Below, piece after piece: positions 13,901 to 49,660 of a stretch of 64,000 bases of DNA. The notes beneath the pieces were generated by a model, which was not told where the DNA came from, searched no databases, and saw only the letters and a list, made by a program, of their open reading frames with translations. Numbering within the stretch: the first letter of the stretch is position 1; each line of letters opens with the position of its first letter. Source of the stretch: Megalonaias nervosa (Eukaryota > Mollusca > Bivalvia > Unionida > Unionidae); NCBI GenBank assembly GCA_016617855.1, contig JAECUM010003234.1, positions 1 to 64,000 of the forward strand, in the 5' to 3' direction. The translations under genes were made by a program, and so were the position numbers.

Positions 13901-14139
13901 CAATAAAGAATTTCAAAAAGGAGAGTGAAAAGAAAAGAAAAATCTAATGTACTTTTTAAAGTGATGTTTTGTGAAATTGGATTATCACTTTAACGAGAAT
14001 ATACCAGAAAGAAAAGCGAAAGTGTATCTTGGTTTTGATTTCTATCATCATAATAAGGACCTACACTCACGCACTCACACACGTACATCAAGGGCCAAAG
14101 GGATTTGAGTTTTATTTCCTTTTGGCAAACATTGAGTAG

Positions 14140-14181
14140 TCTCTTTTCGAGAGAAGTGGGTGGCCCTGAAAAGGACCTTTG
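14140..14181 (-). terminator. Histone-type 3' stem-loop and purine-rich element, copy 1
   Basis: Minus-strand CCAAA then GGTCCTTTTCAGGGCC (14177-14162): a 6-bp stem (one G-T pair), loop TTTC, then ACCCA. About 10 bases on is CTCGAAAAGAGAC, like the histone downstream element. It lies 48 bases after the stop codon at 14226. Known histone mRNAs carry GGYYCT-TTTC-ARRRCC flanked by CCAAA and ACC, so the match covers stem, loop and flanks. Confidence 0.75.
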
Positions 14182-14225
14182 GGTGTTTTTTGTTTTGTTT
14201 GTTTTTTGTTTGTTTTACAACAAAG

Positions 14226-14867
14226 TTAGGAACGGGAGGTAATGTGCTTTAAATGCCTAACCCCTTTGCCAGGGCCAAAGTCTACTCCTGGATCTGCTAC
14301 TGTCAATGATTTGGTGAAAATCACTAGTGTCGGTATCTCAGACGTAGTGGGAGTGTGGATGGGGTTGAACTTTACGGCTCGGGAAGGTCTTGTTCTCTTA
14401 GGTCGTATTAAAGAAGTCTGATACCTTTGTTTCAGACTCTTTAACTCAGCCAAAATGCCTAAGAGTACCGTGACCATTTGACTTTCACCATCCATCTTCT
14501 ATCCTAGACTTTGTTTCTTCTCTGCTTCTTCTTCTTCCTGTCGTTTTCTTCTTGCCTTTTCTTGTCGCTGTTGCTGTTGAATGAGAAAGGCTTGTTCTGC
14601 TTCTTTCTGCTGTTGCAAATATTTTTCCAATTCTTCTTTCTGTCTCTGTTTAAAATTCTCGACGTACGGAAAGGAAGGAGAAGGTGGCGAGGGTGCTGAT
14701 ACCGGAATAAATTCTTGTGAAAAAGAGAGAAAGTCCACTAAATCCCAGTTAAATCGTCATCTTCTGGAAGTAGGACTTTCTTTGCTTTGGCAGCCGCTGC
14801 TATGTCATCTCCTCTCGTCTCAATAGACGGTGCACCACAATTCATCGTCTTCTTAGGTTTCCGTCAT
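14226..14867 (-). pseudogene. Right-end coiled-coil protein, copy 1
   Basis: Aligns with 41482-42111. The start codon is at 14867. A readable frame (14738-14499) carries a Pro/Ser linker and a long Gln/Glu/Lys coiled coil (FKQRQKEELEKYLQQQKEAE). The next part (14495-14226) carries LLGILAELKSLKQRYQTSLI followed by a basic RPKRTRPSR patch. A stop separates the two blocks and frameshifts lie at the N-terminus. It keeps a Gln codon where copy 2 has an in-frame TAG. Function unknown. Confidence 0.65.
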
Positions 14868-15085: not shown

Positions 15086-15319
15086 ATGTCAACTAAAGCA
15101 GACTCGTCTACCCTCCTATCGTCGATAATGCTCAACCCAAATTATCCCATGTATGTCAGATGATCAAGTTATCACCAAGATCGCGCATACGGCTCTTTCG
15201 AAACGAAGAATCTATTTGGAGAGGCAAAAGGCTGTCAGAAGCGAGTCTTAATATACGGTCCAGATGTCATACAAAGTTTGAGGAAGAGAATAAGACCCGT
15301 GCGATGCGCTCTATGTTAA
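15086..15319 (+). pseudogene. Right-end small basic protein, copy 1
   Basis: The ATG at 15086 and the stop at 15317 correspond to 42345-42578 in copy 2, and the DNA aligns throughout. Small indels and stops break the frame after about 20 codons. The promoter upstream and the stem-loop downstream are intact. Confidence 0.6.
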
Positions 15320-15340: not shown

Positions 15341-15385
15341 AACCAAAGGCCCTATTCAGGGCCGCTCATATGTCTCGACAAGATA
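15341..15385 (+). terminator. Histone-type 3' stem-loop and purine-rich element, copy 1 right end
   Basis: AACCAAA then GGCCCTATTCAGGGCC (15348-15363): a perfect 6-bp stem with loop ATTC, then GCTCA, then CTCGACAAGAT. It begins 29 bases after the TAA at 15317-15319. This is the best-preserved version of the right-end element; copy 2 has lost its 5' arm. Confidence 0.75.
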
Positions 15386-23334: not shown

Positions 23335-23947
23335 TATTATCTACTATCCACACAAAAGAATGCGAATGCATAAAACATACCATATCTACTATCCTCACCA
23401 ACGAATGAGAATGCATAAAACATATCATATCTACTATCCTCACAAACGAATGAGAATGCATAAAACACACATATATACTATCCACACCAACCAACGCGAA
23501 TGCATAAAACACACACATATATACTATCCACACAAACGGACGCGAATGCATAAAACACCATATTTACTATCCACACCACGAACGAGAATGCATCAAACAT
23601 AGACACTATACTATCCTCACAAACGAATGAGAATGCATAAAACACACCATATTTACTATCCTCACCAACCAACACGAAAGCATAAAACACACCATATACT
23701 ATCCACACCAATGAACGAGAATGCATAAAACACACCACATCTACTATCCACACCAACGAATGAGAATGCAGAAAACACACCATATTTACTATCCACCCCA
23801 ACGAACGAGAATGCATAAAACACACCATACCTATTATCCACACCAACGGACGAGAATGCATAAAACACACCATACTTACTATCCACACCAACGAACGAGC
23901 ATGCATAAAACATACACACTATGCTATCCTCACAAACGAATGCGAAC

Positions 23948-24001
<54 letters not shown>
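23335..24001. repeat. 45-bp minisatellite followed by a CA tract
   Basis: About thirteen units of roughly 45 bases containing CTATCCACACCAACGAACG and AATGCATAAAACACACCAT, from 23335 to about 23945, then (CA)n to 24001. Several repeats give open frames on both strands, which I discard as repeat translation. One degenerate unit in the same orientation lies at the other end of the element (42773-42835). Confidence 0.85.
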
Positions 24002-24074
24002 CAGTAAAGAAGTGAGTGTTTATATTGACACTACTTCACATTCACACAAATTGGCAAATTAAATAGTGTCTCTT

Positions 24075-24106
24075 CTCTAGAGATCTGGTTAGTCCTGAGA
24101 AGGGCT
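24075..24106 (-). terminator. Histone-type 3' stem-loop, imperfect
   Basis: Minus-strand AGCCCTTCTCAGGACT (24106-24091): a six-position stem with one C-A mismatch, loop TCTC, then AACC and a purine-rich AGAGAAGAGACAC. It starts 28 bases after the stop codon of the gene at 24134. Weaker than the others because of the mismatch, but position and flanks agree. Confidence 0.55.
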
Positions 24107-24935: not shown

Positions 24936-24976
24936 TATGTCTTTTCGAGAATATTGGGGTAGCCCTGAAAAGGGCT
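24936..24976 (-). terminator. Histone-type 3' stem-loop and purine-rich element
   Basis: Minus-strand AACAGCCCTTTTCAGGGCTACC: a perfect 6-bp stem (24976-24961), loop TTTC and ACC 3' flank. CTCGAAAAGACAT follows 11 bases later. It starts 35 bases after the stop codon at 25011. It differs from the canonical histone element only in the outermost base pair (A-T for G-C). Confidence 0.75.
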
Positions 24977-26301: not shown

Positions 26302-26307
26302 TTTATT
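26302..26307 (-). terminator. Polyadenylation signal AATAAA after the protease gene
   Basis: Minus-strand AATAAA 53 bases after the protease stop, followed by a GT-rich stretch (ATGTTGTGTTTTG), as expected for a downstream element. The capsid-side cluster thus ends in an ordinary poly(A) site, unlike the cassettes to its left. Confidence 0.6.
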
Positions 26308-26359: not shown

Positions 26360-27443
26360 TTATTTTTGACAAGGTTGACAACGGTGTGAAATCTTGTGAG
26401 ATTTCCATTGATGGAAGTCATGAGGCCATTGATGTACACTACGTTTCCTAGCTAAAGACAAAAGATATCCATAATGGTCACAAAACCATCGATCTACTTT
26501 CTCATCGTTTCTAGAAGAGTGACGATCAAAATAAGTCACTAAATGTTCTAAAGGATATCCAAGACTGCGTTGATGAAGCAAATACACACAATATTGTCCA
26601 CACGCCATGGAATCTGTGCCTTGTAATTTCACATTATTGTATCGTGTAGTCTGGGTATTTCTTCTCATGAAGTCAATGATATCGTCTTCCAAAGGGGGTA
26701 ATCCATACGAATCAAAATACTCAACACAATCCTCTTGAGGGAAGTAGACGGCAACCCAGTGAGTTTTTGAAGATGACTTTCGTCCGTGTTGATGACATAA
26801 ACTTGATGGTCTTCAGGTTTGCGATGAGGTAGTTCATCTTTAGCGCACACGACAGGATTCCAAGAAGCAGTATACGAACTATTGTTCAAAAGGTAATAAA
26901 GTTCCCAGGTATCTATTTTTTGTTGTGTTGGGTTTTGTTTCACAAGTTGATAAGTCATCAATTCAAATCTGACTTTTTGTTTGAAACGCTCTGTCAAGTA
27001 GCCGTTTCTTCGCCTTGTCTCCCAGTTCTGGGCTAAGAGAGCTTCGATGCGATAGATCTCTAGAGTAGTCAATGGAGGGCAGGAATGATCACGCAAGCCT
27101 TTATACCACTCATGCAACACTGCTTCTTCTGAGATTAGACTCCATGAGTCGTCCAGATACTCGTCCAATTTCTCTTCTTGACTCATCATCAGACATTTAT
27201 CTGTTGAATTTGACTGGGATGATCGTTTTGACATCCATAACAATATCTCTTGGTCAATTCCGTAATTTTATCCGCCAGGTGTTTAGCAAAACAGGACACT
27301 AAATGTTGTTCTTGTTCTGGCCATATGGATGTGACTACTACCTCGTCCTCTTTGTCTTGGTCTTGGGGTTCTGTTTTCACGCTATCCTCCCATTCCATTT
27401 CCAAAGATTCTCTATCGTTCAATGAGGTATAGGAGTCTTCCAT
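26360..27443 (-). pseudogene. Adenain-like cysteine protease (capsid maturation)
   Basis: The N-terminal frame (27443-27189) is acidic and ends in a CYGCQNDHPSQ segment typical of this Polinton gene. The middle frame (27243-26665) carries the helical region. The C-terminal frame (26692-26360) carries the catalytic end, with LQGTDSMACGQYCVYLLHQR holding the oxyanion Gln and nucleophilic Cys. The His-Trp and Tyr-Phe-Asp-Ser parts of the active site are present in the DNA around 26720-26770 in the C-terminal frame. Two frameshifts, near 27200 and near 26780, break the gene. The family cleaves capsid precursors during maturation. Total length fits a Polinton protease of about 350 residues. Confidence 0.85.
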
Positions 27444-27448
27444 TGTTT

Positions 27449-28737
27449 CTAATAGTCTAGAATGACTTCTCTCAAACTGTTGATTTCTATGGTATTATCG
27501 AATTCGGCATACAAGATGACGTTGACCGTCTCGGTGAGAGCTTCTGCAAACTGAAGTTCCACACGCAGTTGACCAGACTTTATAGGGTGGAAATGTCCCT
27601 CGTCGCTGCCTTGGTCTGGAGTGAAATCAAAGGCCCACAAAGTGTAACCTCCTACATAATCTTCGTTCGAAATACCGTTACTGGTGTTGGTTCCTAGTTG
27701 TCCGGTAGCTTCGTACAGGGACAAGTACGATCTCAAGTAATTCTTCTGGGCAAAGTTAGGTTCGAAGGGTCTGGTACACAAGGTCTTGCCAACTGGAAAG
27801 GATTTTGATCGTGGGCTCCGTTGATTGCTGCATTACTGACGATGTCAACGATTAAACGTTTGGGTAACTGTCCTTGGAACAGATGATCTTCGATCTTGGA
27901 TCGGAGTCCAGCAGCAATCGTGAATGTTTTCACTTCTACACGACGTATCGGATACTTGGCGGTCGATCTGCTCAGTGTTTGACTGATGTCGTTTCCCGCT
28001 TTAGGTAACACTTCTACGCGACGCACGTAAAGTCTGGCTTCTTGGATAATAGTTTTGTACTCGTTGGCATGAGCCATCAAATGGAATGCGGCACTGCTGC
28101 GATTGAGTCTCAGGCGAATATCCACTCCGTTTAGCAAATACTTGTCTTGCAACCACATGTCCAAATGCAAGCGATGCAAGCGATCCATCAGTTCTAAACT
28201 ACGAGCTTGCAGGATTTTCCTTCGACGGTTGTTAAAACCCACATTGTGAGGATTGTCATCGGCTGTCAGGGCTGTGTCGTTATACGTGTCTTCACCTGCG
28301 GTGTCAGGTTTCCATACCACGCAAGCATCCAGATGAGTGTTCTTGGCCTCTTGTCCGTACGTCAAGAGATTTTCTAGGTACGCTCGGTAAGGGTAAGTAT
28401 CCATACTGCTGATGACCAGTTTGTTATTCAAGTACAAATCCACTTCGCTGAACAAGGAATGCATGAAATTGTTGACGGGAGCTAATCTGGCATCGGCTCC
28501 CGGATTGGTGTTGTCGGTTTTGATCACTTTCAGTTTCAGATACAAGTAACTGCTATTCAGATCGATGTAATCTTCGGGCTGTCCTTTGATTTCAAACTCG
28601 ATGGGAGCGGAATCCGTCAAAGAGGAGACAGGATGAAATTCGACCCATTGGGATTCTTGCATCGTCGTCATGGTGGGTGGCATGGCAAACAGATCCAGTT
28701 CCGACTTGGAACAAGCACAAGACTCTTGGTGCATCAT
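27449..28737 (-). pseudogene. Major capsid protein (double jelly-roll)
   Basis: The frame at 28737-27733 (334 codons) starts MMHQESCACSKSELDLF and carries the Polinton capsid signature region (EFHPVSSLTDSAPIEFEIKG; YIDLNSSYLYLKLKV; DLYLNNKLVISSMDTYPYRA). Its last codons are out of frame. The correct C-terminus (PFEPNFAQKNYLRSYLSL to the stop at 27449) is in another frame, so there is one frameshift near 27775. This type of protein is often annotated in invertebrates as F54H12.2-like. It would build the icosahedral shell. It is flanked by the protease 5 bases downstream and the core-like protein 9 bases upstream. Confidence 0.85.
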
Positions 28738-29934: not shown

Positions 29935-31055
29935 GATGGTCACTTTTTTTATAGTCGATGAGTTGCGAAGCGGCAATCCAAGAGTCAAAACTGGGAGGAT
30001 ATCCTTTCTAACGTACTTTGACTTCTTTGACACGTCGTTTTCCACTTTACGAGTTCTTCGATCGAGAATGCTTTCTATCTCGTACACATCGACTTCTTTC
30101 TTGGTCACACGTTGTAACTCGGGCAAGTAAAACGTTCCTTTTAATACTTCTCCGTTCATGTCTTCTAATTTATATACAGGAGGATAACGGCCACGCACAC
30201 GTTCAGTGACACGAAACAATTCGGTGGTCCAGTTGGGTAAGTAGCCTTTGTCGAAAGTGCGTTTGGTTTTGCCAATGCGTACCCAATCTCCTGATGCCAA
30301 CACTCCACCTTTCTTGGGGACAGTCATTGTTGGGGACGTAGCAAACAGGCGCTCGAAGACGGTCACTTCGTTGTCAGGAGTCACTTCTTGGTGGGGGGGG
30401 GGGCGTGCCCAATGCTCCGATGGTAAGATTGGTTGTACGATTGAACGAGGTGTGGCAAGACGTCGATGTACTTGAGAGTGTGTTGATGAGTAAAATATTT
30501 CCACGTGCGTTCTTTCAAGGTGCGTTGAAAACGTTCCACGATGCTGGCTTTGATTTCGGGATTCTCGGTGGTGAAAAAATGAATGTCACGTTTTTTCAAT
30601 TCGTTTTGGAAAGCTTGGTTCAGAAATTCGGTGCCTTTGTCAGTTTGCCATCGAAGGGGGTGACGACCGCTTTGTTTCAACACCAGTTTGAGGGCTCGCA
30701 CTAACTCATTGCTCGATTTGGAAGTCAATAGCACGACCCAAGCAAATCTGGAAAAGACGTCGATGACATAAAACAAATATTTGTAACCACGATTATAGGT
30801 GGCCAAATGAGAGACATCAGCTAAATCGACTTGCCATTGATGATCGATGCCCTCCACTCGGGTCCGACTTCTGGAAAATTTTCGTCGAATGGGCTTGTGT
30901 AAGGTGTATGTGGCTTGTTCTTGTAACCAGCGTTGCACTTGAGGTAAAAGGATACTTTTCAGTCTAGTTTTGGCAGCACGATACAATTTCTGAACTCCTC
31001 CATAACCTGCGGGATGGGATGGATCGAAGTAAATGCTGGCTAACACCTTCTCCAT
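29935..31055 (-). pseudogene. Retroviral-type integrase (DDE)
   Basis: The frame at 31055-30381 carries an N-terminal zinc-binding-like region (FDPSHPAGYGGVQKLY) and the catalytic core: first Asp in HQWQVDLADV, second in RWQTDKGTEF, Glu in IKASIVERFQRTLKER. All three DDE residues are visible. An 11-base G/C run at 30393-30403 shifts the frame. The C-terminal domain continues in another frame (GDWVRIGKTKR, FDKGYLPNWTTELFRV, TFYLPELQRV), a small barrel-like domain as in retroviral integrases. Polintons use this enzyme to insert into host DNA, giving 6-bp duplications. The homopolymer might be a sequencing or assembly error. Confidence 0.85.
29944..29954 (-). promoter_or_regulatory. TATA box of the membrane-protein gene
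   Basis: Minus-strand GACTATAAAAAAAGTGACC, ending about 10 bases before the ATG at 29934. It lies inside the reading frame of the integrase tail. Confidence 0.55.
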
Positions 31056-33387: not shown

Positions 33388-33571
33388 ACTTTTTTTGGTG
33401 ATTGTGATTAAGTCGACGAAGCGGACGTGTACACGACAGGCCTTCCGTCTTGGCACCAGTGGTGGAACAGATGGGTACGAAATCGCAAATAATCGGGAGT
33501 GGGAGGTTTTAAATAACCAAGAGTAAATAAGAGTGTGGGATTTGAGTGGCATCGTCGTACGCATGAGTCGG

Positions 33572-34138
33572 TCAAGGCGTTCCTAATTGTTTAGCTAAGA
33601 CTTGTACTTGCGATTTATCTCTAGGGCTTTTAAACAACACCACGTAATGAGCATTGAGACTGATGGTAAGACGGGCTTTACTTTGCTGAAACAAAGTTTG
33701 GGAGATGTAAATGACACTGGCATTACGATGATGCTCTTTGCGCGTAAACCAGAGTTTAATTTCTTCTTCGTCTTCTTTTAACATGTCGTCAAAAATAACC
33801 AAATGAGTTTGACTAGGGTCAGACACGATCCCGTCGTCCTCGCCAGGAATGCCTTCCACAAATACGATGGAATCGCCTTGACTTTCTCGCAGAAGGCTGT
33901 ACGCCGATTGCCACACTTTGTAACACCAAACGATTCGTTGAGGTGGACGATCGATCAAATGATGTTTATGTTCGATCAAAAGTTTGACAAATTCAGTTTT
34001 GCCTGAACCGCTAGGTCCGGCAATGAGCATGTTAAAGGGATGGCGAAGATACAAGGCCTCGCAACTAGTCCGATCTACGTGTTCGTCAATGACTTTGACA
34101 GTGGAGGAAGACGGAGCAGAGACAGTAGTGGTAGCCAT
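33572..34138 (-). CDS. Packaging ATPase (FtsK/HerA type), C-terminally truncated
   Basis: 188 codons. Walker A GPSGSGKT at residues about 41-48 (after HPFNMLIA), Walker B-like HLVIFDDML at about 110-118, and a sensor-like ASVIYISQTLFQQSKA. The enzyme drives DNA into the capsid. The frame ends at TGA (LGTP-stop), whereas copy 1 has TGG there and continues, and family members extend by a few dozen residues (region matching HAYDDATQ is still present after the stop). This copy therefore has one nonsense mutation near the end and otherwise an intact fold. Confidence 0.85.
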   Translation of the reverse strand: MATTTVSAPSSSTVKVIDEHVDRTSCEALYLRHPFNMLIAGPSGSGKTEFVKLLIEHKHHLIDRPPQRIVWCYKVWQSAYSLLRESQGDSIVFVEGIPGEDDGIVSDPSQTHLVIFDDMLKEDEEEIKLWFTRKEHHRNASVIYISQTLFQQSKARLTISLNAHYVVLFKSPRDKSQVQVLAKQLGTP

Positions 34139-34225: not shown

Positions 34226-35038
34226 TTAATTATGAACAACACGAAAGACAAAAATACATAAAAGCCAAATAGTTAAGTACATGAATAAGAGACACATCAA
34301 AACGATCATAGTGGAATATAAACAAGTCTCTGTACAACATTTGTGGTGATCAAGAGGTGAAATCATAGGGGTAGTGTGTAATGTTCTTACAGTCTCTACA
34401 CTCCTTGGCACAGTCACACAAGATTCCTCCCGGAATGGCCTTTCGGGGATGTCGATAATGGTCCTGTCCTGAAGAGAGTGGTTTTCCTCGGTCACGACTT
34501 CGTCTTCTTCTGGCACTGTCACTAACACTGGTTTAAAAGTTACTTTTTTCACTGAACGTTTTAATTTTTTGGATGACAAATTTTTGGCATAGTGTGCCAC
34601 TTCTTTTGTCCAAGCCTCAAAACCCCAAATTTTCCAGTCACGTACGTCTTTCCAGTGAGGGTGTAAGTCACAAGCTACACACACGTCGTCATACACATCT
34701 TCAGTGCCTAAAAGTTGACGAATCTTGTTTTTCCGTAGAGGTTGAGAAGTATCAAGATGAAAGCGCAAAGCTTTGAGCAGAATAAGTCTCTCGTGTACGT
34801 TTAAAGGGACCACTTTCATGCTTTTTGGAGCGGTATGTACCGTTTGTAAAGAGTCCACAAGGAATCGGCTGGTAAACGAAATCCCAGAAAGCAAGTCACT
34901 AAGACACACACTACACGTCGACCAATTCAATGGACACAGTTCTCGTAATAGACGATCGTAATCCTCTACCGTTTGAACAGTGTCATTGATTTCCTTCCAC
35001 GGAATCTGTTGTATCACGAATGATAAAGGTCGTGGCAT
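34226..35038 (-). CDS. Membrane-anchored Polinton accessory protein, 270 aa
   Basis: Intact. Residues 30-60 contain a Cys/Trp-rich segment (CPLNWSTCSVCLSDLLSG). A region at about 115-150 has CVACDLHPHWKDVRDWKIWG, a lysine-rich stretch follows (SSKKLKRSVKKVTFKP), then an acidic linker. The protein ends in a hydrophobic span of about 25 residues (MIVLMCLLFMYLTIWLLCIF) with a short tail, so it is probably a tail-anchored protein. I do not recognise the family. Segments of the upstream degenerate gene (35100-35499) resemble its N-terminus. Its own TATA box lies 11 bases before the ATG. Confidence 0.6.
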   Translation of the reverse strand: MPRPLSFVIQQIPWKEINDTVQTVEDYDRLLRELCPLNWSTCSVCLSDLLSGISFTSRFLVDSLQTVHTAPKSMKVVPLNVHERLILLKALRFHLDTSQPLRKNKIRQLLGTEDVYDDVCVACDLHPHWKDVRDWKIWGFEAWTKEVAHYAKNLSSKKLKRSVKKVTFKPVLVTVPEEDEVVTEENHSLQDRTIIDIPERPFREESCVTVPRSVETVRTLHTTPMISPLDHHKCCTETCLYSTMIVLMCLLFMYLTIWLLCIFVFRVVHN

Positions 35039-36568: not shown

Positions 36569-39500
36569 CTATCGGTCTTGAACGTTGTCCTTTTGTATAT
36601 TCTGACCAAAATCGTCGTGACCGTACGGTACAGTGAAGTGATTGGGAAGCCGTACTCGCTTCTGGTACACGATTTGATAGACTTTTTCCAAGGGCCGGCT
36701 AACGATTGGTGTGTGGGTAAACGTACAATCTTGTGCGGTTCGTGGGTGGTCACTTTAAAATTTCCATCCTCTCCAGACTGCAAGGCTTCTTTCAAGACGC
36801 CAAAGTTTACCAGTCGACTGGTGCGATAATTGAGAGTCAATCCTTTCACTTTACACTCCGTGTGTACTTCTCCTTGAGGGTCTCGGTATTCGTAGCCGTA
36901 ATTTTTAGGACCGCCACTAGCAAAACTTAAAATCTTGTCGTCGAGATGCTCGTCCGTCCTGGCTCCTAAACGGTCCCCTTCGATGACAGGGTGAGGTTGA
37001 CCCAGACGATCGATGTAAATGCAACTGTCCGTGTCAAAATACAGCACACGATCTCCTATCAGTTCTAAAGCTTCGTGCAGTTTTAAGTGAGCATGGGCTG
37101 TCACGTAAGCGGCAATGATGACATTTCCAAATTCGTCGGCTTCTACAAAGTCCAGTTCTTCTTCATAATTTACTAAGATCAAGTCCTCACGAACGACGTC
37201 CACGTGTTTCATGTATTTGGTTTTGTCGTGAATCATCTGGAAGTAGCGGGAAGGTTCTGTCAGATACTCCGTCTTGGGTAAACACGGTCGTTGTGTCATT
37301 TTACCCGCCCCCCCCCCCCAACCAATTTAACATCACTTTCGCAAACGATCGCCTTCCTTCGCTTTCTCGATATGGTCTAAAGTGATGCCTTCCTGCTTCC
37401 AGTATTTGTCTTTGAATTTTGTTTGGTCTTCGGAAGTGCGGCAGCAAGATGGATAGACCCTGGCTTCTTGTTTCAGTTTCAAAAAGGCATTCACGTAGTC
37501 TGCGAAAATGCCTTTCTGAGTCTCGTCGCCCTTGTGGTATTTTCTGTCTTGGGAAAGTGGTAAATTTCGTACACTTCTAACAGTTGGTATCCCAGGTCCA
37601 GAGCTTTGAACAATTCCACGCTGACCCATGTTCCCGTCAAGGCGCGTTCTTCCTGGCTGTGCTGACAAGGTCGGTCTTGGTTGCACGTTTCGGCACAAGT
37701 ACGGCACAAGGGAAACATCAGTTTTCCTTGGCAATGGTGAGGTAAAAAGGGATGGAACAAGTACGTGGGAGGCAAAATTTTACATTTGATCAATCCTTCG
37801 TATTAGCGAATGTTGTCCAAGTCGATGTGTTCCGTCAGCAATTGCGGGTGTCCTGCGAGAAAGTGACAATATTTGCACACGTACGGATACAGAGAACACA
37901 CGTCCAAGTATCTGATTTCCTCTCCTTTCTCTTCGTCGGATTGGCACAGCAAACAGTGGCATTCGCCCGTCCTCTGTACAAACTGTCCCTTGGGTTCAGT
38001 GGGTCCACCAGTTTGTAACTTTCCACGATGCGCTTAAACTCGGGATCGGTTTTCAAACGGTGATCGTACTTGTGTTCCCACATTTCTACCACTCAGTATC
38101 CTTGCTCTTCTAACTTCAAGCGTCGCTGACAAGTGGTCTGGTACAAGTCTTCCATAGTTCGTTGTAAAAACTGATTTGTCGTCTTACGTTGAGGGTAGCA
38201 GATGGGACATCCGTGAAATAAGCACCGGTTAAACTCGTACACGATCTTAGCCATCCACCGAATACCTTCCGATGGTCTTTTCGCCTCCTCCGTTGCGAGC
38301 ATGTTGAATCCATTTGTCTTCCTTGTCGCACAAGTAATGTAACCAGCGTAGGTCTTTGACCGAGTATTGACGTTTGAAAAAATTGGTCGTTTGAGGACTG
38401 ATGACAGCAAGGGTATTTTCGGGCATGAATCGTTGGCGGTACACTAAGGAACACGCTTTGGCAATGGTGCAGGCTTCTTTCAAAGGATCGATCCCTCCGT
38501 GCTCCATGAACAGTTCTCGAAATTTTCCACAGCAACGCCGTAAAATGTCCACGTCGGAACGACAATACTTTAACATTTCTTCCCGAAAGTCGAAGGGGTC
38601 CGAGGCGTGAGTCTGGTACCAAGCGTAGAAAGCTTCTCGTTGTTCGGTGCGCATGTTGTCGGGGTCGTAGTAGTGAGCCTCGGGCAAATGGGGTAGAACG
38701 GCGTGTTGATTGGCTTCGGTATTCAAAAAGTGTGGAAAATAGCCTTTGGCCATCTCTGTCATTCGAAATGTTTTAGGCATGCAACTCAAAGGCATGGCCA
38801 AGTAACTCATCGAATCTTTAAACTGCACTTGACCCACTTGCATGGAAATGATTTGGCTCCGTTCAAAATGACTTTAGGACGTTCGGTACTTTTGTTCCGT
38901 ATAGTATCTGAGGAGAAATTGTCCATCGTATCCCAAAAAATCGTGAGCCATCACCGTGGCATAGCGATGACAATCTCCATAACGTTCGATGTCTTCTTGG
39001 CTCCACGTCTCGTCGATAGGGTCTAAGATCCATTGGGCAAAATCGGTCAGCGTGTTTGGTCCCCGAAAGATTTTTATACGTCCTCCAGGAATCTTGCTAC
39101 AGTGAGGAAAATGAGTAAAGATAGGCTCTTGGATGCACTTCTCACACGCTCGGTGAGCCACGCAGAAATTAGGAATGTGAATGCCAGTCTCTTGCATGCA
39201 TTCGAAATCGAAAAAGATGAAATGGCCTTTCTTCTGGTCATTATCTTCTTCTTCTTCATGTTTGGATTGGTATTTTTAAATGTACCATTGGAGTTCCAAG
39301 TCCACGACTTGGAGACAAATGTAACATCGCCTCTTTCCTGAACAGACTTGCGCCTTGGCATTATTGGTACGTATGCCTTGTCCACAAGTAGGGCACAATC
39401 TCAGGAGCTGACAAGCACTTTTCTGCTGTGAATCTTGCGTCTTTAAATGTTGTTGATAACAAGTTGGACTGACAAACGTGCGCTGACAAGCTGGGCAATG

Positions 39501-40753: not shown

Positions 40754-41146
40754 ATGGAAGAACCCACACAGATCGAACTTCTGATTAGAGCTTTGCGAGG
40801 TGTCATACGAAAGTTTTCTTCAGACAAGCCTTCGGACTACTCTCCCTCCTTTCGAGATAAAAGTCAATATACTTGCTATATCTGTCAGAAGAAAGGGCAT
40901 TGGGCTACAGAATGTCCAGACCATCCAAAAAACAAGACCAGTGTCAGAAGAGACAAAAGTCAAGATATTTGTTATCATTGTCAAGAGAAAGGACATTGGT
41001 CTTCAGATTGCCCTAAGAAACAACAGGAGCAGGAGGAGGACGAGAAGAAGAGGTGCCCTAGGCAAAGGAAGAACCCCGACACATTCAGAAAGAGAAGAAA
41101 CGAAGACGAGAAAAATGTGAGGAAGAAGAGGAGGAAAAACTTGTGA
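40754..41146 (+). CDS. Two-knuckle CCHC zinc-finger protein, 130 aa
   Basis: Intact. A short helical N-terminus (MEEPTQIELLIRALRGVIRK) is followed by two CCHC knuckles, CYICQKKGHWATEC (residues about 41-54) and CYHCQEKGHWSSDC (about 76-89), separated by a basic linker. A Lys/Arg/Glu-rich tail ends RKKRRKNL, a likely nuclear signal. The knuckles are of the retroviral nucleocapsid/CNBP type that bind single-stranded nucleic acid. The gene is transcribed away from polB through a divergent promoter, so it may act in replication (inference). I see no histone-type stem-loop after it. Confidence 0.75.
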   Translation: MEEPTQIELLIRALRGVIRKFSSDKPSDYSPSFRDKSQYTCYICQKKGHWATECPDHPKNKTSVRRDKSQDICYHCQEKGHWSSDCPKKQQEQEEDEKKRCPRQRKNPDTFRKRRNEDEKNVRKKRRKNL

Positions 41147-41412: not shown

Positions 41413-41450
41413 TCTCATTTCGAAAGAAATGAGTGGCCCTAAAAAGGACC
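41413..41450 (-). terminator. Histone-type 3' stem-loop and purine-rich element
   Basis: Minus-strand CCAACGGTCCTTTTTAGGGCC (stem 41450-41435, one G-T pair, loop TTTT), then ACTCA and, 8 bases on, TTTCGAAATGAGA. It begins 31 bases after the stop at 41482. It aligns with 14140-14181 in copy 1; the stem is conserved although the surrounding sequence has drifted. Confidence 0.7.
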
Positions 41451-41481
41451 GTTGGGTGTTTGTTGTTTTCAAAAACCAAAC

Positions 41482-42111
41482 TCAGGAACGAGAAGCAATC
41501 CGCTTTAACTGTCTTAAGCCGTTGCCACGGCCAAGACCTACTTCTGGACTTGCTCCTTTTAATGGTTTGGCAGAAATCACTAGAGGTGGTATCTCCGGTG
41601 TACTAACCGGATTAGACTGTTTGGCTCGGGAAGGTCTTTTTCTCTTGGGTCGTAATAAAGAGGTCTGATACATTTGTTTCAGACTTCTTAACTCGGCCAA
41701 AATGTCCAAGAGTACCGTTACCGTTTGGGGTTCACTGTTCTCCTTTTCTCCTAGCCCTTGTTTCTTCTCTACTGCTTCTTCCTGTCGTTTCCTTCTTGCC
41801 TCTTCTTCTTCTCGCTGTTGCTGTTCAAGGAGAAATGCTTGTTCTGCCTCTTTCTACTGCTGTAAAAATTTCTCCAATTCTTCTTTCTGTCTTTGTTTAA
41901 AATCCTCGACGTGTGGTAAAGAAGGAGAAGGTGGCGAAGGTACTGGTACTGGAACAAATTCTTGCGAAGAGAGAAAATCTACTAAATCCCAGTTTAAATC
42001 GACCTCTTCAGGAAGTAGTGCTGTGTTAACTTTGGCAGCCACTGCTATGCCATCGCTTTTCGTCTCCAAAGCCGGTGCACCCCAATTCATCGTCTTCTTA
42101 GTTTCCGTCAT
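41482..42111 (-). pseudogene. Right-end coiled-coil protein
   Basis: ATG 42111 (MTETKKTMNWGAPALETK). In one frame: a Leu/Val/Trp-rich stretch, a Pro/Ser linker (VPVPVPSPPSPSLPHVEDF), a Gln/Glu/Lys coiled coil, a helix DILAELRSLKQMYQTSLL and a basic patch RPKRKRPSRAK. The frame is cut by one TAG (about 41856) where copy 1 has CAG, so it is a single-base nonsense mutation. The Arg/Lys patch plus coiled coil suggests a nuclear oligomer. Family not recognised. It shares a bidirectional promoter with the gene at 42345 and ends in a histone-type stem-loop. Confidence 0.6.
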
Positions 42112-42344: not shown

Positions 42345-42578
42345 ATGTGGACCAACGTTGAATCGTCTACTCTTGTATCGTCGATGCAGTTCCGTACGGA
42401 CTTACCCATGTATGTGGGATCATCATGGAGAATCGTTAGGATCACCGAGACAAGCGTTTGGAAAAGAAGGACCTATGTGGAAAGACAAGGCTGTCTTGAG
42501 CGAGTTCTGATTTATGGACCAGAGGTTAGACGAAGTTTGAGAAAGAGAAGAAGACCTATGCGATGCCCTCTATGTTAA
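42345..42578 (+). CDS. Right-end small basic protein, 77 aa
   Basis: Intact. The N-terminal half is neutral (MWTNVESSTLVSSMQF, then LPMYVGSSWRIVRI). The second half is basic and ends RRSLRKRRRPMRCPLC. No similarity to histones or other families recognised. The conserved position and promoter in both copies support a real gene. It is transcribed outward toward the right end, followed by the remains of a histone-type stem-loop. It may be a small DNA- or RNA-binding regulator (inference from charge only). Confidence 0.6.
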   Translation: MWTNVESSTLVSSMQFRTDLPMYVGSSWRIVRITETSVWKRRTYVERQGCLERVLIYGPEVRRSLRKRRRPMRCPLC

Positions 42579-42600: not shown

Positions 42601-42640
42601 ACAAGGGCCACTCCACTGCCTCGAAAAAATTTATTCTTTC
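42601..42640 (+). terminator. Degraded histone-type 3' element
   Basis: Keeps the 3' arm AGGGCCACTC and the purine-rich CTCGAAAAAA but lacks the 5' arm present in copy 1 at 15348-15353. About a dozen bases appear deleted. It would not form the stem. Confidence 0.55.
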
Positions 42641-44722: not shown

Positions 44723-46734
44723 ATGGTGAACTCGTGTGTTGTTTGAGGTTGTACAAACCGAGCTGATAAAAAAAAAAGCGTTCAACGGCACTTCTTTGAC
44801 ATTCCAAGAGTCATTTATAATCAGGGACCAAAAACAGAACAGTTATCAACCGAGAGACGTGCACTTTGGCTAGCCCGGAACAATCGCGAAGGATATAACC
44901 CAAACCCATCTAAACGACATCATAAGGTGTACTCGGATCATTTTGTAACTGGTAGGTACTGGCAAATATATCATTGCTTGCAAACTATTATTGCACAAAT
45001 TTTTTTTTTTCATCCTAGGTTAACACAGCCCTGACTTTGACCACGGCTAATCTATCGATCGATCGATCGATCGATCGAGAGAGAGAGAGAGAGAGAGAGG
45101 TTGTGGTGAGAGAAAAAAAAATGAATGTTTGTAATCAGTAAACTCTATATGTTTTAATTGCACTAACTTGTAACTTCTTACATATTTGATTATGTACATC
45201 TGTGCTTGATTAAAATGATGCAATGACAAAGTTAATGCATATATTGATCAGTCATATTAGTTTCTTGAAATTCCGAAAAATTGTCTCGATTAATCAGCTA
45301 GTAATGAGCATGTGGCAGAACCAGATAAATAGCCAAGAAGGCCAAAGCTTTTAAATGTATTTGTTTAAGATCAGAAATACGAATTTTGTTATCAAAATGT
45401 ACATGTACTGTATGCACCATATTATTGTTTCAGGTAAGAAGGCTGACCTGTATGATTGTACAAATCCAGATTGGGCACCCTCCTTAAGACTGAGACCAGC
45501 AACAGCAGACACAGAAACCTCTCAAGCAAATGTTAAGGGGTACGCAAGAGTTAAATTGAGAAAAGAAAGAAAGGCTCAGCATGCAGCTGCTGAAGCATTA
45601 ATAGATTTGCAAAACCAACCTCAATTAAATGAATTACATTGTATACCAGGTTCAGACAAAGAAACAGATAATGCTCCTCGGTGTTCATTTCTCCTGAAAG
45701 GCTCTCTTGAAAGGCCATTTAGAGAACAGCTACAGAATGAACCTGACATCACAAGTCAGATGCGTGATGAGCTGAATCGTTTGCATTTGGAGAATATGGC
45801 ATTGAAAGAGAAGCTTAATAAAACTAGGATTTCACCGAAGTCGTTACAACATGATCCAGAGAAAGTTAAACACTTTACAGGACTAAATTACACTGTCTTG
45901 ATGGCACTTTTCCAGTTTCTGTCTCCAAGTATTTCTGAGACTTCTAAAAGTGCTCTAAGTAAGTTTGAAAAGTTTATGTTGGTAGTAATGAAGCTTGGAC
46001 TGAATCTCAGTTTGCAGGACCTTGGGTACAGATTTCACATTTCTCCCAGTTATGCAAGCAAAGCATTTTCAGACATTATTCATATAATGTACATTAAGAT
46101 GAAGTCTTTGATTCTGTGGCCGTAGAGAGAAGAGTTACAAATGTCAATGCCGATGGAATTCAGAAAACATTTTGGTGTCCGAGTATCAATAGTGATCGAC
46201 TGCTTTGAGGTATTTATTGAGAGACCATCCAATTTATTGGCAAGAGCAGAAACCTGGTCAAATTACAAACACCACAACACAGTGAAATTTCTGATTGGAA
46301 ATACACCACAGGGTGCAGTTTCTTTTCTCTCTAGTGGATGGGGTGGAAGAGTATCGGAAAAATATATAGCTGAGAACTGTGGTCTTTTAAAACAACTTGT
46401 GCCAGGAGATTTACTACTTGCCGATAGGGGATTCGATATTCAAGAAAGTGTGGGACTAATGTGTGCAGAAGTGAAAATACCCGCTTTCACAAAAGGAAAA
46501 ACTCAGCTCTCACCAGTTGAGTTAGAGACAACAAGGAAAATTGCACACAACAGAATACACGTGGAAAGAGTAACTGGTCTTGTCAGAAACAAGTACACCA
46601 TATTACAAAGTAAAATACCAGTTGACTAACTCCATTGCAGAAGTGACTCAATTCCAACAATTGATAAAATTGTGACAGTATGTTCGGCATTGACCAGTTT
46701 ATGTGAATCAGTTGTGCTTTTGACTAGTAAATAA
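44723..46734 (+). pseudogene. ISL2EU transposase: THAP zinc finger plus DDE_Tnp_4 domain
   Basis: Exon 1 (44723-44951) encodes a THAP domain: MVNSCVV, a stop where the second Cys-motif begins, GCTNRADK, then RRALWLARNN and YSDHF. A GTAGGT donor is at 44952 and a TTTCAG acceptor before 45434; phases match. Exon 2 carries a coiled-coil linker, a helix-turn-helix region (LQDLGYRFHISPSYASKAF) and the DDE core: Asp in IDCFEVF, Asp in LLADRGFD, Glu in HVERVTG. In-frame stops at 44744 (TGA), 46123 (TAG) and 46627 (TAA), all without frameshift, inactivate it. The final stop is at 46734, overlapping an AATAAA. Confidence 0.85.
45053..45100. repeat. ATCG and GA microsatellites in the transposase intron
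   Basis: (ATCG)n at about 45053-45078 followed directly by (GA)n to 45098. Confidence 0.8.
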
Positions 46735-47379: not shown

Positions 47380-49660
47380 TTATTTCGTCTTAAATTGTGG
47401 CAGTTTTCTGCAAACTGGGCAGTACCAATCTCCATTTGGAACTCTCTTAAGCTTCACACATTTGAAGTGTAGCCAAGCATATGGGCAGTTACTGTTGTCA
47501 CAGCCAATTACATCTTCATCTTCAACATAAACCTTTTGACATACACATATCAAGTTCTGTGCTTTAGTGGTATTCAAGTCTGTTGCTTGTTTGTTGCCCT
47601 GTACTGTATCTGATGACTCTGCATTGGCCAAGGGTCTGGAATAGGATTTTCCCACCAACTCTGGTAAAATTACTGACTGAAAAAAAGTCTTGGATTTTTC
47701 CACCATGATCTGACAGAAATCAGCATCAAATGAAATTCTTTGTAGAAAAGTGTCAACATTTGTCCATACCATAAAATCGCAATATTCCTTTTCACAAAGA
47801 AGCAATTGACTCTGAATCTGGTAATAGTAGGCATGTGTTGTCTTAAGTTTAAGTTGTCCATATACAGTCTCTAAACAATTAACAGAATCTGAAACAGGAG
47901 AATCTTTTGCACAAAATGGACACTTAATCTCTACTAACATTTCACCGCAGCAATCACATGATGCTACACCATCTGGTGTGGCTCCCATAAATGGATAAGA
48001 GGGATTAATGACGAGTCCACTCTCACGCAAACTAAAATTCTCATGGTTGTTCCTCATGGTTTCAATGTATGAGCTTTTTGCAGTCTTTTCATGGTTACAT
48101 CCCGATTCAGTCTGTTCTGAAGTGAATCCTTTCGCAGATGGGTAACAAATCGGCCTAATCAGACTTTTTGATGGATTGTCAGTTGATGTATGGCAAAGAG
48201 ATTTTATTCTTGAAGCTGTCACCCTACCAGCCCTGAAGTTAAACCACTGTTTATTACTGCTCTGACCTCTGGTGTCCTTCTCACAATTGGTACTTTCTTC
48301 TGGTGTCACACATAAAGTCTGAATTATTTCTTCACAGCATTGCATTAAATCTTCCTTTTTTGCATTAAGAAATTCTTCCTGATAAAGTTCAGTTAGGACT
48401 TTAGGATATTTTTTATCCAAGGCTTTTGGTCTATATTTTTGTGCATACCCTGGTACAAGAGACAAAAATACAGGCCTGTTACCTGTCAAATCAAGTGATG
48501 CAAAGAATTCTGACAATTCTTCACTTGTTGGTTCTGTTACAATGGGTAGCTTTTTCTTCTTATTCAAAGACAGTGTTTGAATCCCAGAGACTGCTTTGTC
48601 TAGTAGCTTTTTCTTTGTTCGAGCTGAAGTGAAGTCAATCTTCTGGATGGTCTTGAATTGAACCTGAAGACAAATTAAAATATTTGGATGTAAATTTAAG
48701 CCACATTTAAATTCAAAGATAAGAAATAAACAATCGTCATTTCAAATGGATTGTATTATATGCATGCATTTGTTTAGTATTCTTAATGAATATTATGTTC
48801 CAAGTCTGTGTAAAAATGTTGCTGATTGTTTACTTTGTCAGTATAAGCATTTCATTATACTTTATTTTTAATTATTTTGTTAGGAACGAAAATGTGTTAT
48901 GAATAGAAATGTAATGTTAGAAAGCTTGAACATGTTTATCAGTCTCTCAAGTTCATGCCAAGTAGATTGGTTAATGGGCCTTTTACGGAGTTTTGGGAAA
49001 AACTTAATTGACATAATAATATTAAGTTGTTTTTCACGTTTTAGCGTTCACAAGTACTGACCTTTTGGACAGGAGAGGGCAGCCAGTAAGATTTTTCTTC
49101 TGTTACTGTCTTAGAATTTCGTAGTTCTACAGCAGCCTCCACTGCAAAAAGAAGTGCCCCCGATGTGAGAGCAGACTTCTCCTACACCTGCCATACATGT
49201 ACAATGACCAGAAATAACTGTTCCATTCTTCTCGCAAATTACCCACGGTTGTAAACATGCGTTATTTATCCTCTGGGAGTGTTTTACCTTTCCTGCCACA
49301 ACCCACCTGGCATTGATTGTGACTTGTCCAACATCCACAACCCAGCCACAAACAAAATAATTATATGCTTCCAAAGATTTAGAAGCTCTAAGTTCTTGTA
49401 AAGTGTAGGCACTCTGCGTATATACTAAATAGTTCACTATGTCGGGATATGTGACCTCCGGCCATGATGATAAATCTTTACTCCATTCGCTTTTCTCTAT
49501 CTCGTACGGGTCCTTGTCGTCCAGTATCTGAATTTTTTCAAAATATCTGGCCTTAGAATCTTTATCCAACGTATCTCGATACATTTGTTTTCTCAACCCG
49601 AGAGTTGTTTTCCTTCTCTGTATCCATTGATGGTAATAGCAACGAGCAGGGACAAATATC
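47380..49660 (-). pseudogene. ISL2EU second protein: SWIM, YqaJ nuclease and PHD finger
   Basis: Exon 1 (about 49660-49062) carries the conserved block DPYEIEKSEW, TYPDIVNYLVY and KSLEAYNYFVCGWV, then a SWIM zinc finger (HCTCMAGVGEVCSH). One extra G in the run at about 49159-49163 shifts the frame after SHIG. The intron is 49061-48664 (GTCAGT donor, CTTCAG acceptor). Exon 2 runs to 47380 with a YqaJ-like exonuclease (FNFRAGRVTASRIKSL; NPSYPFMGATPDGV; MLVEIKCPF) and a C-terminal PHD finger (CVCQKVYVEDEDVIGC; CPYAWLHFKCV; WYCPVC). YqaJ enzymes are lambda-exonuclease-like. The role in transposition is not established. Confidence 0.85.

Follow-up and report, generated by a model that had tools for sequence, protein, structure and literature searches.

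In the published account of replication-dependent histone mRNAs, SLBP binds a 3' stem-loop, U7 uses its CUCUUU sequence to pair with a purine core, AAAGAG, and the RNA is cut between the two by CPSF73 (PMC7026596). These mRNAs are described as the only ones known in metazoans to be without poly(A) tails (PMC10388802). A set of small genes in the window, by which we mean the whole 64,000-nucleotide stretch of Megalonaias nervosa DNA analysed here, ends in closely similar signals: a 6-bp stem, a 4-nt loop that is mostly UUUC or UCUC, an A-rich 5' flank, an ACCCA-type 3' flank and, about 14 nt 3' of the stem, a purine core, all at a short distance from the stop codon. By our own reading some of the genes are also preceded by TATA-like elements, a further likeness. 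The differences are that these genes are not histones and that their carrier is a virus-like mobile element; moreover, in the P0122 and P0123 gene classes the first base pair of the stem is A-U, and the use of the signals in RNA is a prediction.

The carrier compares with the adintoviruses and Polintons (Mavericks), with which it shares PolB, A32-like ATPase, rve integrase, penton, hexon and protease genes, in the order of a relative, L001. It differs from them in the histone-type ends of its terminal genes, none of which was found in the ten distant relatives searched, most of them fragments, and in the literature, judged mainly from titles and the beginnings of abstracts, we found no description of such ends on Polintons or adintoviruses. 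A link to histones is also known from other animal viruses, the adomaviruses, whose 'Histoid' genes are described as encoding a histone-like protein (PMC11071296); in contrast, the present element has a histone-type mRNA end on genes that are not histone-like. What appears to be new here, and we regard it as both real and surprising, is the presence of a known signal, the histone-type 3' end, on the genes of a mobile element.

The element and its terminal genes

The window contains two elements that are related, lie about 27 kb apart, have the same orientation and are 76–84% identical in long shared blocks (Table 1). Element A occupies about 6.7–15.4 kb and has no match to the left part of element B, which extends over about 24–42.7 kb. 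The minus strand of element B encodes a PolB piece, an A32-like ATPase, an rve integrase, penton, hexon and protease, and by this gene layout element B is an adintovirus-like Polinton. Its core is flanked by stem-loop genes, P0122 and P0123 on the left and a divergent MTET-type/P0121-type pair on the right, and no other intact module was found in the rest of the element with the Rfam model RF00032 (E ≤ 10) or with our own model, R1. Terminal inverted repeats were not found: element B scored at best 25 against a shuffled maximum of 30, and the 29 of element A, against 28, lies in AT-repeat; both copies are decayed. Direct linkage between terminal and core genes rests mainly on element B of the window, with integrase pieces near the terminal genes in locus L033 and weak ATPase matches in L027 and L038.

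P0123 represents a real protein family, with eight metagenomic homologues that are 41–56% identical and an invariant RCVCGARPGRC near the end, and P0122 has one more copy, in L048, with the same stem-loop. The P0121, P0122, P0123 and MTET products show no significant similarity to each other (best E 0.29), implying that their shared 3' ends were not simply inherited with one duplicated gene. On our reading, the terminal-gene products may be short coiled-coil or basic proteins.

Several further features lie nearby. A 45-bp tandem repeat of 14 copies (window 23338–23959) lies immediately beyond the left terminal gene of element B, on its outer side, and a zinc-knuckle (CCHC) gene (40754–41146, plus strand) adjoins the right terminal genes; no histone-type stem-loop was found after this gene with RF00032 or R1. 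Beside the element, at 45355–46629 (+), an HTH_Tnp_4 ORF is followed by a DDE_Tnp_4 transposase ORF, and the region 47380–48345 (−) has a YqaJ-type exonuclease domain together with a weak PHD-finger match below the Pfam cut-off.

Table 1. Features of the two elements in the window, with RF00032 matches at the stem-loops
Feature	Position	Strand	Details
Histone-type stem-loop AGCCCT TTTC AGGGCT	24961..24976	-	34 nt past P0122 stop; -9 kcal/mol; RF00032 24936-24981, 27.4 bits, E 1.4e-3
Purine-rich element (TTCTCGAAAAGA), U7-site-like, downstream of 24961 stem	24940..24951	-	
Small terminal gene P0122	25011..25379	-	122 aa, not histone-like
Histone-type stem-loop, one C-A mismatch, decayed copy	24091..24106	-	27 nt past stop
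Purine-rich element (TCTCTAGAGAAGAGA) downstream of 24091 stem	24069..24083	-	
Small terminal gene P0123	24134..24658	-	174 aa; conserved family ending RCVCGARPGRC plus two residues
Histone-type stem-loop GGTCCT TTTT AGGGCC	41435..41450	-	about 30 nt past stop; RF00032 41410-41455, 27.3 bits, E 1.5e-3
Purine-rich element (TTTCGAAATGAGA) downstream of 41435 stem	41413..41425	-	
MTET-type terminal gene, element B	41481..42111	-	one in-frame stop in window copy
Histone-type stem-loop GGTCCT TTTC AGGGCC, element A counterpart of 41435	14162..14177	-	48 nt past stop; RF00032 14138-14182, 29.4 bits, E 2.5e-4
Purine-rich element (TCTCGAAAAGAGA) downstream of 14162 stem	14140..14152	-	
MTET-type terminal gene, element A	14226..14854	-	broken in window copy
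Histone-type stem-loop GGCCCT ATTC AGGGCC	15348..15363	+	28 nt past stop; RF00032 15343-15388, 29.2 bits, E 3.1e-4
Purine-rich element (CTCGACAAGA) downstream of 15348 stem	15374..15383	+	
P0121-type terminal gene, element A	15086..15319	+	early in-frame stop
P0121 terminal gene, element B	42345..42578	+	77 aa, ends RCPLC
Decayed stem-loop module, element B	42601..42635	+	without 5' arm and loop; 12.9 bits with model R1
DNA polymerase B piece, element B	38247..38843	-	PF03175 1.3e-11
A32-like packaging ATPase	33518..34138	-	
rve integrase with C-terminal part	29957..31055	-	
Hexon-like major capsid protein	27452..28737	-	E 2.75e-98 to L001 protein
Virion protease	26483..26800	-	

Stem-loops in the window

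All five stem-loops proposed in the first-pass annotation are present at the positions given there. The pattern RGCYCTWTTCAGRGCY, allowing up to two mismatches, has five matches in the window against 0.48 expected, and five or more were obtained in none of 100 shuffles. At the Rfam gathering score, which is 34 bits for RF00032 (Histone3), the window gives no match. When an E-value threshold is used instead, computed over all 4227 Rfam families, RF00032 is matched end to end, over all 46 positions, at four sites, its sole competitors by E-value in the window being miRNA models that match an AT repeat at about 3.6 kb. These four stem-loops have fold z values of −2.2 to −4.2. The remaining site, 24091–24106, has a C-A mismatch, folds with only −1.8 kcal/mol (z −0.46) and has no Rfam match at E ≤ 10. 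The description of a 6-bp stem with a 4-base loop and histone-type flanks stands for the four RF00032 sites, the fifth being decayed; two of the loops, at 15348 and 41435, also depart from the UUUC form. For 24091–24106, the sequence AGCCCTTCTCAGGGCT is found in 34 of 52 sampled relatives. Covariation over the five window sites alone does not exceed that of shuffles (176/500).

Each stem is preceded by a same-strand stop just upstream, although the distance, first given as 28–48 nt, reads 27–48 nt. The ORFs before 41435 and 15348 are interrupted by an in-frame stop in the window copy, so that a plain ORF test flags only three of the five sites. A purine-rich element is likewise found 3' of every stem, as had been claimed, but at 24091 and 41435 it differs from CTCGAAAAGA. 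A sixth site, the decayed module at about 42601, is the counterpart of 15348.

Beyond each purine element, at an almost constant distance, comes a TTGCC(A/T)A-type motif, at 14128, 24057, 24926 and 41401 (all minus strand), with variant forms after 15348 and 42601 (both plus strand). It lies farther downstream than expected for a U7 site.

Recurrence in the host genome

A search of the host assembly (2.19 Gb, 54,709 contigs) with RF00032 scored 75 sites among 423,121 first-look candidates; 66 are above the cut-off, and the best reaches 44.1 bits. Matches also occur in 14 prokaryote control genomes, none of which has one exceeding the cut-off. The covariance-model scan suggested at first pass therefore gives a divided answer, negative in the window, where the four matches score 27.3–29.4 bits and none reaches 34, and positive in the genome, where 66 of the 75 scored sites do.

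Surroundings were obtained for all 75 sites, and upstream proteins were assigned by tblastn within 260 nt: 23 are MTET, 23 P0121 and 6 of a fifth type, G5, with 23 unassigned. Terminal genes of the window's Polinton family precede 52 of the 75 sites by this test and about 17 more by eye. Among the unassigned sites, read by eye, 15 share one tryptophan-rich basic C-terminus, one looks G5-like, one has an MTET-type 3' UTR and six received no call. No histone-like protein was found upstream of any of the 75 sites (tblastn E ≤ 0.01), with just about 500 nt upstream covered for 27 of them. A fifth stem-loop gene type, seen in L055, L057 and other loci and not recognised in the window, is coiled-coil-like and ends in a basic WW motif. 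In four loci (L015, L019, L028 and L039) a G5-like or unassigned module shares its strand with a P0123 gene and lies 1.1–1.4 kb beyond that gene, and is thus probably part of the element. The element family has at least five hairpin-bearing gene types, none of them a histone.

Because the 75 loci were themselves found by the hairpin, two other counts were made. At partner sites, which are genes in the same loci whose own hairpin was not the match, a hairpin is present in 19 of 20 cases (MTET 7/8, P0121 7/7, P0123 4/4, P0122 1/1), compared with 267 of 5000 random 100-nt windows of the same loci at the partner-site score, true hairpins included. A protein search for P0123 gave at least 150 scored copies, the window's own included, of 8,798 candidates in the genome, and by our count 104 of the 150 have no internal stop. 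For 52 copies, picked without sight of their 3' ends, the stem-loop lies just after the stop in 48, at 29–37 nt past the last sense codon with the stop counted; it is present in 38 of 39 open copies and 10 of 13 with internal stops, and in the four copies without it (L072, L099, L111, L114) the stem is damaged or was not recognised. Recurrence after stop codons, which the first-pass annotation had named among the tests of its reading, is thus borne out within one genome by both counts.

Eleven P0123 copies share a score of 263.2 bits. The copy number and these equal scores suggest a recent large expansion of the Polinton family, with near-identity of the copies judged from scores only.

Structure and conservation of the module

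Alignment A7 comprises 32 modules (31 distinct) of about 70, hand-chosen to cover variants, so that its pair counts do not come from random sampling; two regular-expression false positives (L041:148 and L050:279) were removed beforehand. Over the 31 distinct rows, 96.2% of stem cells are paired. Pair 1 is G-C in 24 rows and A-U in 7, changing on both sides, pair 3 is C-G, U-G or, once, U-A, and pair 4 is C-A in 5 of the 31 rows. The covariation score is reached by one of 500 shuffles, the true register is far the best of seven, and RNAalifold predicts five of the six pairs. The module therefore has the structure that RF00032 describes, a 6-bp stem and 4-nt loop with pair-preserving variation.

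The downstream element is held at a fixed spacing. In 121 distinct modules, selected by a stem pattern that limits the choice of loop, the loop is UUUC in 88 and UCUC in 30, and the purine core begins 14 nt after the stem in 92. The core is AAAAGA in 97 of these modules, AAAGA in 112 and AAAGAG in 62; the commonest flanks are CCAAA, CCAAC and AAAAC on the 5' side and AACCA, ACTCA and ACCCA on the 3' side. In the P0121 class (19 copies, 12 of them found by their own hairpin) identity is 0.98 in the stem-loop against 0.555 farther downstream. The contrast is small in the MTET class (26 copies; 0.95 against 0.873 beyond), and in the young P0123 copies the flanks are also highly conserved.

Host machinery and distant relatives

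Host U7 was not found, the genome giving five matches, none over the cut-off and the best at E 1.84; 12 of 14 prokaryote control genomes also match below the cut-off. Nor was a replicative histone gene found in the host by a genome-wide search for H4, which gave three matches with no recognised stem-loop in their loci. The assembly may lack both U7 and the replicative histone cluster.

IMG/VR yielded no relatives for the integrase, ATPase or P0123 families. Stem-loop plus purine patterns gave 0, 0 and 4 matches there, and we judge the four sites, which were examined by themselves, to be due to chance; three are nearly identical, and none has histone flanks with a spaced core. Contigs of prokaryote genomes gave no relatives by ATPase and ten by integrase; the latter are MAG records, some of them Escarpia- and Bathymodiolus-associated, and are taken as eukaryotic contaminants. 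In these ten distant relatives RF00032 matched nothing at E ≤ 5 and R1 reached no better than E 0.58, most of the sequences being fragments without element ends. An ATPase homologue was found in a record of Candidatus Thiodiazotropha, a clam symbiont, and an integrase homologue comes from Patella. The Bathymodiolus-associated Polinton contig L010 has a sub-threshold match to a twister-P1 ribozyme at 14146–14210.

Alternative explanations

Hexamers of the ordinary poly(A)-signal type also occur in the window. AATAAA is found at 26307 (−), 53 nt after an ORF that ends at 26360, following the protease region, and again a few nucleotides after an ORF ending at 34226, in both cases as a hexamer match only. 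MTET-type copies keep an ATTAAA some 45 nt past the stem, which also appears in the majority line of that class and makes alternative polyadenylation possible. Dual-mode 3' ends have been reported for some histone genes, and the terminal genes could similarly use the stem-loop in cycling cells and the downstream signal to give tailed transcripts in other cells. We hold this only as a tentative possibility. AATAAA or ATTAAA does follow the stem within 134 nt at 20 of 61 sites of the G-C class and 2 of 37 of the A-U class, and 19 of these 22 hexamers are at 43–46 nt, but at 76 of the 98 sites there is no hexamer, whereas every gene type has the stem-loop and the purine element.

Could the hairpins act not in mRNA but as DNA at the ends of the element, serving its replication, packaging or integration? 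The modules do lie near both ends, and both of the divergent right-end genes carry one. Their placement nevertheless follows the genes, in sense orientation and 29–53 nt past the last sense codon in 48 of 50 rows (of the two exceptions, one is at 75 nt and the other, L054, was not recognised within 80 nt), and the P0123 copies repeat this orientation at 29–37 nt in 48 of 52. The loop, flanks and spaced purine core, moreover, match the histone RNA signal, and no terminal inverted repeat was found; a DNA function is thus very unlikely. The close resemblance to histone ends would also be expected of a passive remnant, the old 3' end of a histone gene that came in with host DNA and has fallen out of use. 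This we reject as highly improbable, given the spread over five or more gene types, the recurrence in 48 of 52 sampled P0123 copies, the change of pair 1 on both sides, and the far higher conservation of the P0121 stem-loop than of sequence downstream. Chance hairpins, finally, might seem compatible with window scores below the Rfam cut-off, but are contradicted by the genome-wide recurrence. The five matches where 0.48 were expected, the RF00032 matches, the 66 genome sites above the cut-off and the counts of 19/20 and 48/52 leave this explanation a negligible probability, and it too is rejected.

Biological implications

We conclude that histone-type signals are present just after the stop codon, with a pair-preserving stem, and that copies of five or more gene types have them repeatedly. 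From the published SLBP/U7/CPSF73 scheme, together with the AAAGAG and AAAGA cores, we infer histone-type processing and S-phase-linked expression. We estimate a probability of about 80% that the terminal genes at both ends of the element carry histone-type 3' signals that would confer S-phase-linked, non-polyadenylated expression. Host SLBP would bind the stem-loop of the terminal-gene transcripts and host U7 snRNP would pair with the purine element, and SLBP, U7 snRNP and CPSF73 would cleave just after the stem-loop, with no polyadenylation. The transcripts would be produced and translated chiefly during S phase, when host replication is usable by the element, and ordinary poly(A) signals may serve the core genes, such as the AATAAA after the protease region and that after one other ORF. 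As judged from sequence, the first-pass reading of these ends as histone-type is supported, with S-phase timing and the label 'early' as what we infer from it. We lean, with moderate confidence, towards a stronger form of this reading, in which the element would have taken over the whole histone 3'-end pathway, with five or more gene types expressed in S phase only and tail-less, and the capsid module polyadenylated.

We know of no other non-histone gene set, and no viral one, that uses the histone 3'-end system, and the terminal genes, if read correctly, would be the first of either kind as far as is known. They would break the rule that histone mRNAs alone lack poly(A) tails in metazoans, and would provide natural non-histone substrates for SLBP and U7. 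RNA-seq based on poly(A) selection would underestimate their expression. An integrating DNA element would, in this way, time its gene expression to the DNA replication of its host.
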